Origin: Marivita sp.
GTDB lineage: Bacteria; Pseudomonadota; Alphaproteobacteria; Rhodobacterales; Rhodobacteraceae
Assembly (NCBI RefSeq): GCF_020055675.1
Contig: NZ_JAIPUS010000022.1
Coordinates: 1-58,640, forward strand
Direction: 5' to 3'
DNA: 58,640 nucleotides
The notes under the pieces are model-generated. The model was not told where the DNA came from and did not search any database. It saw only the letters and a list, made by a program, of their open reading frames with translations. The translations under genes were made by a program, and so were the position numbers. The first letter of the stretch is position 1, and each line of letters starts with the position of its first letter. Shown here piece by piece: positions 16,786 through 24,415 of the stretch.

Positions 16786-17862
16786 TCAGTGGACGTGGGC
16801 CGCAGGCGCGGCGCGGGCGAAACCGTGGAAAAACGCTTCGAAATGGCGCGAGGATGTCTCGGCTTGGTCCAGCACCGTCATCGCTTCAGGTGACAGCGCA
16901 TCCTCCATGTGAAGGCGCATCGTCATCCAGTCGCCGCTGCGTGCCGTATCGAGATCGAACATTGCCTGTGACATCTCGCGCATGGGCATGGCCCGCGCCG
17001 GGCTGCGATCAAACCGCATCCGGTCATTGACGAAACCCTTGGCAAACGCGGTGTCGCCGGTCACCGCCTGGTGCCAGTTGCAGACGAGGAATTCATGGTA
17101 ATCGTCCTGCACGCCGACATCGGCCCCATCGGTGACTGAAAACACCGCCGTTTCGCGTTTGAGCCATTCGGTCCAGAGCACCGGTGGCGTTTCGCCGGCA
17201 TATCTCATCGAGATACAGATCTCAGAGAGCAGATCGGCATTCTGTTCGATAAACGCCAGGAGCCCGGCAAAATGCAGACTGCGCTTGGCGTCCGCGTCCA
17301 GTTCCGGGTCGCGACGTCCATAGTCGCTCAGGTAAAAAACCAGGTGTGTCAGCTCATACGCGGCCTTCTTGTTGGGCAGCGTAAAGGTCTCTGACCGCGC
17401 CATGAAGCGCCGGGCGCGAACGTCGAGCGCCGCATCGGTCGCCTTGGACGCACTCCCGCGCCGCGCCATCATCCGGCGGGCTTCCATCCGTTGAAGATCG
17501 GACAATTCGGCGCCAGCAAGATCCTGGTCGCGCGCCCATTGAACGAGCTTCTCTCCTTCGCTCCCCGGCATGCCGAGGTCCTCAAGATCGAGCGCCATTG
17601 ACAGGAAGAAACGGTAATATTGGGGAAAGAAGCGCAGCCGCTTCTCGACGCTTTCGTAAAACGGCGCGTAGGTTTCCAGCGCCGCCTCGCCAGGAGCGAT
17701 GCCTGTGCATTCAAGGATGTTCAGGATTTCGGCGTTTTCCTTGAGCCAGAACACATCATCGCCGTAGCGGCGGTGTTCGGCAAAGCAGCTCAGAAGCGCG
17801 CCGAGGCGCGCCTCTTGGGGATTGATCCGGGACGGGCGGGTGAGTTGAATGACATTTGTCAC
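16786..17862 (-). CDS. Uncharacterised 358-residue protein downstream of the repeat-peptide gene
   Basis: I do not recognise a function. The start is set at GTG 17862, eight bases after a strong AAGGAGG; the longer frame from TTG 17886 would read through that site. The protein is soluble and largely helical, with no signal peptide. Recognisable stretches are NKKAAYELTHLVFYLSDYGRRDP (residues about 170-190) and FIEQNADLLSEICISMRYAGE, a pattern that recalls alpha-helical toroid-type uncharacterised families seen near natural-product genes, but this is only a loose resemblance. It follows the repeat-protein gene by 105 bases on the same strand, with two hairpins between, and probably shares its transcript. 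Confidence 0.7.
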   Translation of the reverse strand: MTNVIQLTRPSRINPQEARLGALLSCFAEHRRYGDDVFWLKENAEILNILECTGIAPGEAALETYAPFYESVEKRLRFFPQYYRFFLSMALDLEDLGMPGSEGEKLVQWARDQDLAGAELSDLQRMEARRMMARRGSASKATDAALDVRARRFMARSETFTLPNKKAAYELTHLVFYLSDYGRRDPELDADAKRSLHFAGLLAFIEQNADLLSEICISMRYAGETPPVLWTEWLKRETAVFSVTDGADVGVQDDYHEFLVCNWHQAVTGDTAFAKGFVNDRMRFDRSPARAMPMREMSQAMFDLDTARSGDWMTMRLHMEDALSPEAMTVLDQAETSSRHFEAFFHGFARAAPAAHVH

Positions 17863-17887
17863 GATCCAGGCCTCCTTGGCGATCAAA

Positions 17888-17949
17888 GGACAGGGTTTTT
17901 CTGTCCCGGTTCAACGTGATGCGGGCGCGCCCAAGTCGTCGGGCGCGCC
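17888..17949 (-). promoter_or_regulatory. Two hairpins between the repeat-protein gene and its downstream neighbour
   Basis: One stem pairs GGACAG (17888-17893) with CTGTCC (17901-17906). A second pairs GGGCGCGCC copies at 17923-17932 and 17941-17949 around the loop AAGTCGTC. Neither has a clean T-run on the leftward transcript. They could lower expression of the downstream gene or protect the 3' end of the repeat message. Confidence 0.4.
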
Positions 17950-17967
17950 GCCCTCTTCCGGTGCAGT

Positions 17968-18462
17968 TTATGCTCTGCGGGGTGTGGAGGCCGACATGAT
18001 CGCCTCCACGGCGTCACCGGTATTGGCGGCAGACGTTGTCGGCGTGCTGGCAGACATGATCGCCTCGACAGCGTCGCCGTTGCGGGCGTCCGAGGTTGTC
18101 GGCGTTGAGGCGGACATGATGGCTTCCACCGCGTCACCGTTGCGTGTGTCGGAGGTCATGCGGGTGGAGGCAGACATGATCGCCTCGACAGCGTCACCGT
18201 TGCGGGCGTCCGAGGTTGTCGGCGTTGAGGCGGACATGATGGCTTCCACCGCGTCGCCGTTGCGTGTGTCGGAGGTCATGCGGGTGGAAGCAGACATGAT
18301 CGCCTCGACAGCGTCACCTGTCATTGTGTCCGACCGGGTGGGCGTTGAGGCCGACATGATGGCCTCTACGTCGTCACCACAGAAAATATTGCCTGAACCT
18401 GCGGTATTGTTCTGATCTTCAACGAAGTTTTCGGTAATCTGGAATTTACGAACTGCGGTCAT
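17968..18462 (-). CDS. Tandem 20-residue repeat protein, precursor-like
   Basis: This 164-residue protein has a 28-residue non-repeated leader (MTAVRKFQITENFVEDQNNT..., one Cys at position 28) followed by six full 20-residue repeats and a seventh cut at 16 residues. Each unit begins GD(A/D)VEAIMSAST, then a variable linker such as PTTSDARN, RMTSDTRN or PTRSDTMT. Synonymous codon differences between units with identical peptides point to selection on the protein. AGGAGG stands before ATG 18462. No signal peptide, membrane span or catalytic motif is seen. The leader-plus-repeated-core layout resembles multi-core peptide precursors, but a structural repeat protein is equally possible. Confidence 0.75.
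   Translation of the reverse strand: MTAVRKFQITENFVEDQNNTAGSGNIFCGDDVEAIMSASTPTRSDTMTGDAVEAIMSASTRMTSDTRNGDAVEAIMSASTPTTSDARNGDAVEAIMSASTRMTSDTRNGDAVEAIMSASTPTTSDARNGDAVEAIMSASTPTTSAANTGDAVEAIMSASTPRRA
17971..18378 (-). repeat. 60-base tandem repeat array, seven units
   Basis: Units in coding order are 18378-18319, 18318-18259, 18258-18199, 18198-18139, 18138-18079, 18078-18019 and 18018-17971 (last one short). The period is exactly 60 bases, so the frame is kept. Units 2-3 and 4-5 form a 120-base higher-order copy differing at about three positions. Confidence 0.95.
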
Positions 18463-18796
18463 GGTGGCCTCCTGTTGGCGGGTTGAACACGTCGAACGCT
18501 GGCACGCAAAGGTTGTTTTGAAAATACAAATTATCGCTTAAGATGTGTAAAGCAGAGTTATCCACATGAAGAGTCGCCCATAGATTGTTTCTACTGGCGA
18601 CTTCCTGGAGTTATCAACAGATCCGAAATTTCTGGGGATAACTTTTCGCACAACCTATCCGAGACCGGTGCGCCGGGGATTCACGGGCAATGGGGTCCAT
18701 CCCTTGTCGCGAATCCCCACCCTGCGATTCGACGCGATCGCCACTTGTCAGTAGGCCCTCTTCTTGGGATAGAGGCCGCGACCCGGGAGGCCGCAC
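18463..18796. other. Divergent spacer between repeat gene and xthA, AT-rich with DnaA-box-like 9-mers
   Basis: The 334-base spacer is clearly richer in A and T than its surroundings at 18501-18650. It holds TTATCCACA (18558-18566, a perfect DnaA-box match), TTATCAACA (18611-18619, one mismatch) and, on the other strand, TTATCCCCA (18633-18641). It must also hold promoters for both flanking genes, but I could not place them with confidence. No open reading frame is convincing here. Confidence 0.6.
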
Positions 18797-24088: not shown

Positions 24089-24415
24089 TCAACCCCGATC
24101 GCGGTGAACGGGACTATCCATTGCAGGCTGCGGACGTGTCACCGGCCATGCGCGGCGCGACAGCTTGGGCGGATCGCGATTGACAAGAAGACGCACGGGA
24201 TCGCGGTTGCAAAATACCACCAATTGTTCGCCGTTTTCCACCAGCGTAAACCCGCGACGCCGCACTTCATGCAAGAACGCCTCGCGGCCTGCGTAGCGGT
24301 CAACGTCGCGCGCCGGGCGGTGAACCACCCCGCCGCGCCCCACAGTTTTGGCGGAAAACAGGTCGCGGAGCCATTTTTCGGGGTCGAGATTTGTCGGTTT
24401 TTCCGGTTTTTTCAT
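24089..24415 (-). CDS. Small uncharacterised protein (108 residues)
   Basis: The protein begins MKKPEKPTNLDPEKWLRDLF and continues with a basic region and the pattern RDVDRYAGREAFLHEVRRRGFTLVENGEQLVVFCNRDPV, which looks like a compact alpha/beta domain. Similar proteins in related genomes have sometimes carried a phosphoribosylanthranilate isomerase label, but the length is far too short for that enzyme and no barrel motif is visible. Function unknown. The 209 bases between tkt and this gene hold only a weak 31-codon frame (23955-24050) without a good ribosome site. Confidence 0.65.
   Translation of the reverse strand: MKKPEKPTNLDPEKWLRDLFSAKTVGRGGVVHRPARDVDRYAGREAFLHEVRRRGFTLVENGEQLVVFCNRDPVRLLVNRDPPKLSRRAWPVTRPQPAMDSPVHRDRG

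Follow-up and report, generated by a model that had tools for sequence, protein, structure and literature searches.

A tandem-repeat gene paired with a DUF6902 gene suggests a multi-core, RiPP-like peptide and a new family of partner proteins

Results

A repeat gene precedes a DUF6902 gene on the minus strand of the window

The window analyzed here, a stretch of 58,640 nucleotides from Marivita sp., carries on its minus strand a repeat gene that begins with ATG at 18462 and stops at 17970-17968, followed in the same direction by the gene of a DUF6902 protein (Table 1). After its leader, the repeat protein consists of six full units of 20 residues and a seventh of 16 residues, all of the GD(A/D)VEAIMSAST type. 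The initial annotation had proposed a leader with seven repeat units, and both translation and Tandem Repeats Finder bear this out. The latter reports a 60-base repeat together with a 120-base higher-order period at 90% match, and because of this longer period part of the sameness of the units is attributed to recent block duplication. The IMSAST codons vary among the units, with TCG, TCT or TCC for the first serine and TCA, TCC or AGC for the second.

Table 1. Features of the repeat gene and the DUF6902 gene in the window
Feature	Coordinates	Strand	Basis
Repeat gene, precursor-like, 164 aa	17968..18462	-	translation; co-occurrence with DUF6902
Leader, residues 1-28, MTAVRKFQITENFVEDQNNTAGSGNIFC	18379..18462	-	M-x-A-x-x-K start common to most relatives
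Unit 1, GDDVEAIMSAST + PTRSDTMT	18319..18378	-	translation
Unit 2, GDAVEAIMSAST + RMTSDTRN	18259..18318	-	translation
Unit 3, GDAVEAIMSAST + PTTSDARN	18199..18258	-	translation
Unit 4, GDAVEAIMSAST + RMTSDTRN	18139..18198	-	translation
Unit 5, GDAVEAIMSAST + PTTSDARN	18079..18138	-	translation
Unit 6, GDAVEAIMSAST + PTTSAANT	18019..18078	-	translation
Unit 7, GDAVEAIMSAST + PRRA, C-terminus	17971..18018	-	translation
Shine-Dalgarno AGGAGG of the repeat gene	18468..18473	-	sequence
GC-rich hairpin / inverted repeat between the two genes	17924..17949	-	
DUF6902 protein, 358 aa, GTG start, proposed modifying enzyme	16786..17862	-	Pfam PF21843, E 2.3e-172
Motif Y-x3-H-x2-F-x3-D-x-G, residues 177-190	17317..17358	-	common to DUF6895
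Motif D-x3-E, residues 218-222	17221..17235	-	common to DUF6895
Motif Y-H, residues 263-264	17095..17100	-	common to DUF6895

The plus-strand open reading frame at 17849-18415, antisense to the repeat gene, also contains a repeat. It was taken as a mirror of the array, as relatives carry the minus-strand frame. The sole match of the repeat protein in the contig search (L002), in a reading frame that presumably encodes an ArgJ-like protein, was regarded as a chance motif match. Weak matches of the precursors to Pfam, NCBIfam and PHROG models (UBA_HYPK, PCSK9_C1, T6SS_Vgr, CH domain, perm_prefix_2 and others), a few of which exceed a curated cut-off, were rejected as repeat artefacts because they are located on the repeats and differ between precursors.

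The GTG start of the second gene is preceded by AAGGAGG at 17871-17877. A TTG at 17886 is a less likely alternative start, as the consensus of 46 relatives begins with M-S-N-V-I. The encoded protein had been described as an unknown helical protein; it matches Pfam DUF6902 (PF21843) with 573.2 bits over positions 2-351 of 351, at a cut-off of 27 bits. The hairpin between the two genes is possibly an attenuator, which would hold the partner below the precursor. The window's intergenic stretch as a whole has a folding z of -3.7. Such a hairpin does not appear to be general in relatives: against base-composition shuffles, z is below -2 in 18 of 88 intergenic stretches, with a mean of -0.88.

The repeat gene occurs only with DUF6902 in the sampled family

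To examine the distribution of the two genes, 295 genomes of the window's family were drawn at one per genus. DUF6902 is present in 82 of them and in none of 14 control genomes. A precursor profile built from 11 sequences was searched at E 0.001, in what we take to be the same draw, and matched 75 family genomes. All of these belong to the 82 with DUF6902, and the remaining 213 gave no match (Fisher p 1.7e-62, without correction for kinship). The 358-residue protein, which had been named as the candidate partner, thus co-occurs with the repeat gene almost without exception, and the proposed check for a repeat gene lacking this partner turned up no case among the 295 genomes at E 0.001. The two genes lie on the same strand and in the same order, mostly 30-150 bases apart.

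Seven DUF6902 genomes have no profile match. In four of them (G081, G139, G304 and G323) a short repeat open reading frame was found just upstream by pattern or by eye, and in G179 the locus is at a contig end. G328 has no recognizable repeat frame upstream of DUF6902 (locus L133) in an otherwise usual setting, and the DUF6902 protein of G079, which has no recognizable precursor, is divergent, at 29% identity.

The repeat protein itself, used as a query, found matches in at least 20 of 61 genomes, namely the window's own, all 16 others of the genus and 3 of 20 others of the family, and in none of the 24 genomes of other families; these counts are low, since the query missed G021, which the precursor profile found. 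All 17 genus genomes hold DUF6902 as well (partial in G013, at a contig end), with 73-81% identity to the window's protein. Scans of viral contigs for DUF6902 gave 35 pattern matches, of which none was confirmed, and a plasmid scan gave no match.

The pair has a seemingly fixed genomic setting among putative housekeeping and transport genes

The pair sits between xth, an exonuclease-like gene on the plus strand, and a hesB/erpA-like Fe-S assembly gene with dgt. This setting was compared across 78 of the 82 DUF6902 loci. Upstream, xth is present in 72 of the 78; of the six without it, five are truncated by a contig end and the sixth, that of G274, has none of the neighbor genes sought. Downstream, 67 of the 78 have hesB or dgt within the 3 kb of flank covered. 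This seemingly fixed xth/hesB/dgt setting suggests a single ancestral locus, inherited vertically and missing from many genomes.

Nine of ten neighboring proteins scanned in the window match Pfam at 1e-8 and were read as housekeeping or transport proteins (ArgS, Na/H exchanger, HD phosphohydrolase, Fe-S assembly, exonuclease, BolA, glutaredoxin, ZapA and transketolase). The initial annotation had noted that no known modifying enzyme, protease or exporter is nearby, and the scan agrees: these ten neighbors include no protease, exporter or known maturation gene, no regulator or receptor and no lasso enzymes B and C. Neither C39 peptidase nor YcaO has a match in the whole genome, and the PADLOC anti-phage models matched none of P0001, P0002 and P0007. 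Elsewhere in the window, a 108-residue open reading frame at 24089-24415 has no Pfam match at 1e-8 and resembles, by eye, a protein cluster of five relatives' neighborhoods.

Each precursor repeats its own four-residue word

Precursors were collected with a pattern of set letters that requires at least two units, so that single-unit forms were missed by construction. From 98 loci, 93 precursors were obtained: G096, G079 and G179 gave no pattern match, and the matches of G230 (at an assembly gap) and G328 were false, while G096 and G230 do match the precursor profile. The 93 precursors hold 666 units, from 2 to 20 each with a median of 7. In relatives, the leader is about 24 residues long, with lysine at place 6 in 72 of 90 and alanine at place 3 in 73 of 90, the latter count leaning upward because starts were picked with a bonus for alanine at place 2 or 3. 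No signal peptide was seen on the precursors by eye. Each unit opens with a stretch of approximately G-(D/E)-x-(V/T)-x-(M/A/L)-F and continues with a four-residue word, usually a small residue with proline ((A/G)P), and a drifting linker. Exactly at the end of a word, 59 of the 93 precursors end.

Of the units in a precursor, 97% have an identical word, and 39 words occur across the 93 precursors, among them TSGS, SSGS, TSWS, TSGL, TTSC, TSAS, TCGL, TNWC and MSCS; that of the window is MSAS. The 3% of units that deviate are for the most part probably linkers that were parsed wrongly, and some are real second words, two words being mixed in the precursors of G071, G095 and G132. Identity at the four word places is 0.96-0.99 within a precursor, a value somewhat inflated because units were kept only if at least two of five letters matched the modal word, and 0.35-0.68 between precursors; for the linkers it is 0.28-0.38 within and 0.10-0.19 between. 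Within precursors, the synonymous share of codon differences is 90% for the word with its preceding residue, 42% for the stretch before it and 22% for the linker; an alternative count of 96% is higher because its units were chosen by exact word. Selection on each copy, which had been proposed from the window's varying codons and constant peptide, is thus supported across the precursors.

The second place of the word is serine, threonine or cysteine in 650 of 666 units. Beyond this place the words have no residue in common, which leaves no basis for guessing the modified atom. The 17 genus genomes use six different words. On a DUF6902 tree of 91 tips, which are those of the 94 aligned proteins that have a word, at least 55 changes of word are required; this is a quick tree with 10 of its 88 inner branches well supported. 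Covariation between word and DUF6902 was not demonstrable with the power available, tryptophan giving three supported and six possible independent pairs among those listed. The units of one precursor change their word together, whereas the leader, the preceding stretch and the enzyme candidate stay. The pattern is that of a putative recognition stretch held constant, with a variable core behind it. Two further members of the window's family (L168 and L169, in G653 and G686) have DUF6902-like proteins whose upstream open reading frames repeat a longer word, (F/L)STSSF.

DUF6902 is remotely homologous to DUF6895

Among 94 aligned DUF6902 proteins (98 minus the partial or divergent G013, G079, G179 and G221), conservation reaches at least 98% at Y177, H181, G190, D218, E222, Y263 and H264. 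Residue numbers here and below are those of Table 1. At position 188, the window protein has D and the DUF6902 consensus D or E. For the profile alignment, 46 of 49 representatives under 62% identity were used, leaving out G214, G238 and G115. Comparison of this profile with one of nine DUF6895 proteins in hhalign gave a probability of 97.2 and an E of 4.5e-11, with the motifs aligned. The window protein itself matches Pfam DUF6895 (PF21836) with 89.8 bits, above the cut-off of 23.8, over only positions 21-231 of 289. Owing to this partial coverage and the far higher DUF6902 score, it appears to be a remote homolog of DUF6895 rather than a member.

The nine DUF6895 proteins comprise two from the window's class, one from another class of its phylum, one each from Cupriavidus, Kitasatospora, Streptomyces sp. 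NBC_00857 and Pseudalkalibacillus, and two from Streptomyces fungicidicus. The residues Y, H, F, D, G, D, E and YH are invariant in the nine, and all are present in the window protein, as would be expected of a DUF6895-type epimerase; the seven conserved DUF6902 residues are identical in three DUF6895 proteins. Neither profile found a convincing chain among PDB sequences (best E 0.47, 0.94 and none), and the single-sequence AlphaFold model, with a mean pLDDT of 37, was not usable. In Pfam, DUF6902 has no match to a DNA-binding domain.

DUF6895 genes often follow small peptide open reading frames

A small peptide open reading frame lies directly upstream of the DUF6895 gene in 8 of 12 loci (G437, G513, G674, G282, L171, L172, L173 and L188). 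In L174, L189 and L190 the small peptide is further up and does not adjoin the matched DUF6895 gene, and L175 has no clear small peptide by it. Several of the eight peptides share a leader of about SG(I/L)(I/L/V)(N/D)xxxTxxQL across phyla. The Streptomyces peptide of L188 matches that of G513 with 41 bits in phmmer. A profile of four Gram-positive peptides scores 35.5 bits on G674, the best of 996 shuffled controls reaching 8.3, and 12.4 bits on G513, just above the 996 controls; it misses G437 (6.9 bits) and G282 (4.4 bits). The peptides of G513 and G674 contain two leader-core repeats each. By eye, the leaders of the DUF6902 precursors are unlike those of the DUF6895 peptides.

Discussion

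The repeat gene is best explained as a multi-core precursor with DUF6902 as its dedicated modifying enzyme, most likely an epimerase, a reading to which we assign a probability of roughly 0.5. That DUF6902 acts chemically on the precursor at all, by epimerization or by another reaction, is rather probable. In the proposed mechanism, DUF6902 would bind the leader (often M-x-A-x-x-K), the repeated stretch of about G-D-x-x-E-x-F before every core, or both. It would then change residues of the following word, M-S-A-S in the window and T-S-G-S, S-S-G-S, T-S-W-S or T-C-G-L in relatives. By homology to DUF6895, the likeliest chemistry would be L-to-D epimerization, with acid and base residues among H181, D188, D218, E222, Y263 and H264. 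Later cleavage behind the word and before A/G-P, perhaps by an unlinked protease, would free many copies of one short peptide.

A RiPP system is expected to have a precursor gene with leader and core regions, a modifying enzyme encoded beside it, a product modified after translation and, less strictly, genes for leader removal and export in the cluster. Judged by sequence pattern, the repeat gene has the leader and the cores, and DUF6902 adjoins it as a putative modifying enzyme; leader-removal or export genes were absent among the ten neighbors, as was C39 from the whole genome. Many RiPPs use unlinked proteases. The multi-core precursor raised in the initial annotation accordingly stands as to leader, repeated cores and partner, and stays conditional as to modification, cleavage and export. 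Cyanobactins and thiovarsolins are RiPPs with multi-core precursors that have a leader, a repeated recognition stretch and short repeated cores, and the window precursor appears to have the same three parts. It differs in that its genome lacks a YcaO match, only two genes are involved and the cores in one precursor nearly all agree.

One DUF6895 protein is named as a lasso-peptide epimerase in the title of a report (Shi et al., ACS Catal. 2026, 16:1757; cited in PMC13352647). The DUF6895 family resembles the window protein in remote homology, in the Y-H, D-E and YH residues and in that its genes often stand behind a small peptide frame; the window system differs in that its partner is DUF6902, the window peptide is a tandem array and not a lasso precursor, and the B and C enzymes expected beside a lasso precursor are absent among the ten scanned neighbors. 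A second comparison is offered by MslH, which is reported to epimerize the C-terminal tryptophan of the lasso peptide MS-271 (PMC10406935). Acting on a residue of a ribosomal peptide is also the role proposed here for DUF6902. The profiles of DUF6902 and DUF6895 differ from this enzyme in that neither found a convincing PDB chain. MslH has a metallophosphatase-like fold.

The epimerase function is taken from the title of one report on a remote homolog, and DUF6902 might modify the cores by another reaction, e.g. oxidation, hydrolysis or a cross-link at the serine, threonine or cysteine that occupies the second place of nearly every word. We consider this quite unlikely, because the residues common to DUF6902 and DUF6895 are those expected to be catalytic, which argues for similar chemistry. 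The same homology to a family with a reported enzyme speaks against the repeat protein being an unmodified multivalent one, in which the word would be a short linear avidity motif and DUF6902 a binding partner, chaperone or scaffold client. Unmodified repeat arrays do consist of tandem 20-residue units, and up to 20 tandem units per protein that agree in their word, the lack of a protease or exporter among the ten neighbors and a seemingly fixed genomic place resembling that of a vertically inherited cellular gene rather than a secondary-metabolite cluster all fit such an array. Here, however, the word is constant while the linkers drift, and there is a dedicated partner gene. Moreover, the tree requires at least 55 changes of word while DUF6902 keeps its polar residues, whereas a pure binding partner should co-vary, although the covariation analysis was without power. 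An avidity array is thus unlikely, if the most plausible of the alternatives.

That 93 precursors use 39 words, with the units of each largely keeping to one, is reminiscent of pheromone groups. The exact C-terminal words of 59 precursors would likewise suit a signal whose copies leave the precursor unmodified and are then sensed, DUF6902 acting as a cytosolic receptor or processing factor. Such a signal would call for partners that the ten neighbors do not include (regulator, receptor or exporter); no signal peptide was seen by eye, DUF6902 has no DNA-binding match in Pfam and its polar motif is common to DUF6895. We therefore regard an unmodified peptide signal as the least probable of these readings.

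Taken as a modified multi-core peptide, the pair suggests a RiPP-like product and a partner family new to such peptides, and the repeat gene and DUF6902 appear undescribed as a pair: a search of the open literature found no paper on them. Two families of unknown function, DUF6902 and DUF6895, are thereby tied to peptide precursors, and both are given a testable function. To our knowledge, epimerases of ribosomal peptides are few, and if DUF6902 is one, a family tolerating 39 core words would be useful. The private words also raise the question of what drives the joint change of all copies of a word, and of what recognizes that word. A bolder version, which we consider doubtful, is a new class of ribosomal peptides in which one precursor would yield a private tetrapeptide in as many as twenty copies, with D-amino acids set by DUF6902, to serve as a species-specific chemical tag or in self-recognition, with DUF6902 and DUF6895 as promiscuous epimerases that cross phyla.

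Several DUF6895 neighborhoods showed further features. Plasmids of S. fungicidicus and S. chartreusis (L174 2833-6688, L189 3830-7910 and L190 2950-5945) have a common gene set that encodes a small peptide ending in LLLSPPxPRPKKG, a protein of 230 residues, a tandem pair of DUF6895-like proteins and a serine hydrolase-like protein; in S. fungicidicus, a P450 lies upstream of the set. This appears to be a peptide cluster of its own. In Kitasatospora fiedleri, a comparable small peptide (LLLSPKPPKEKPTR) occurs with two hypothetical proteins and a serine hydrolase. In Streptomyces sp. NBC_01243 (L188 5519-6597), a 68-residue peptide with GPWYAYHTLE lies two bases before a DUF6895-like gene, and this pair is near a TnsA-like gene. 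L171 and L172 encode large DUF6895 proteins (577-584 aa) with the gene of an IPT/TIG domain protein nearby, and by eye these proteins have QxxxGxFG-like stretches in their C-terminal half.
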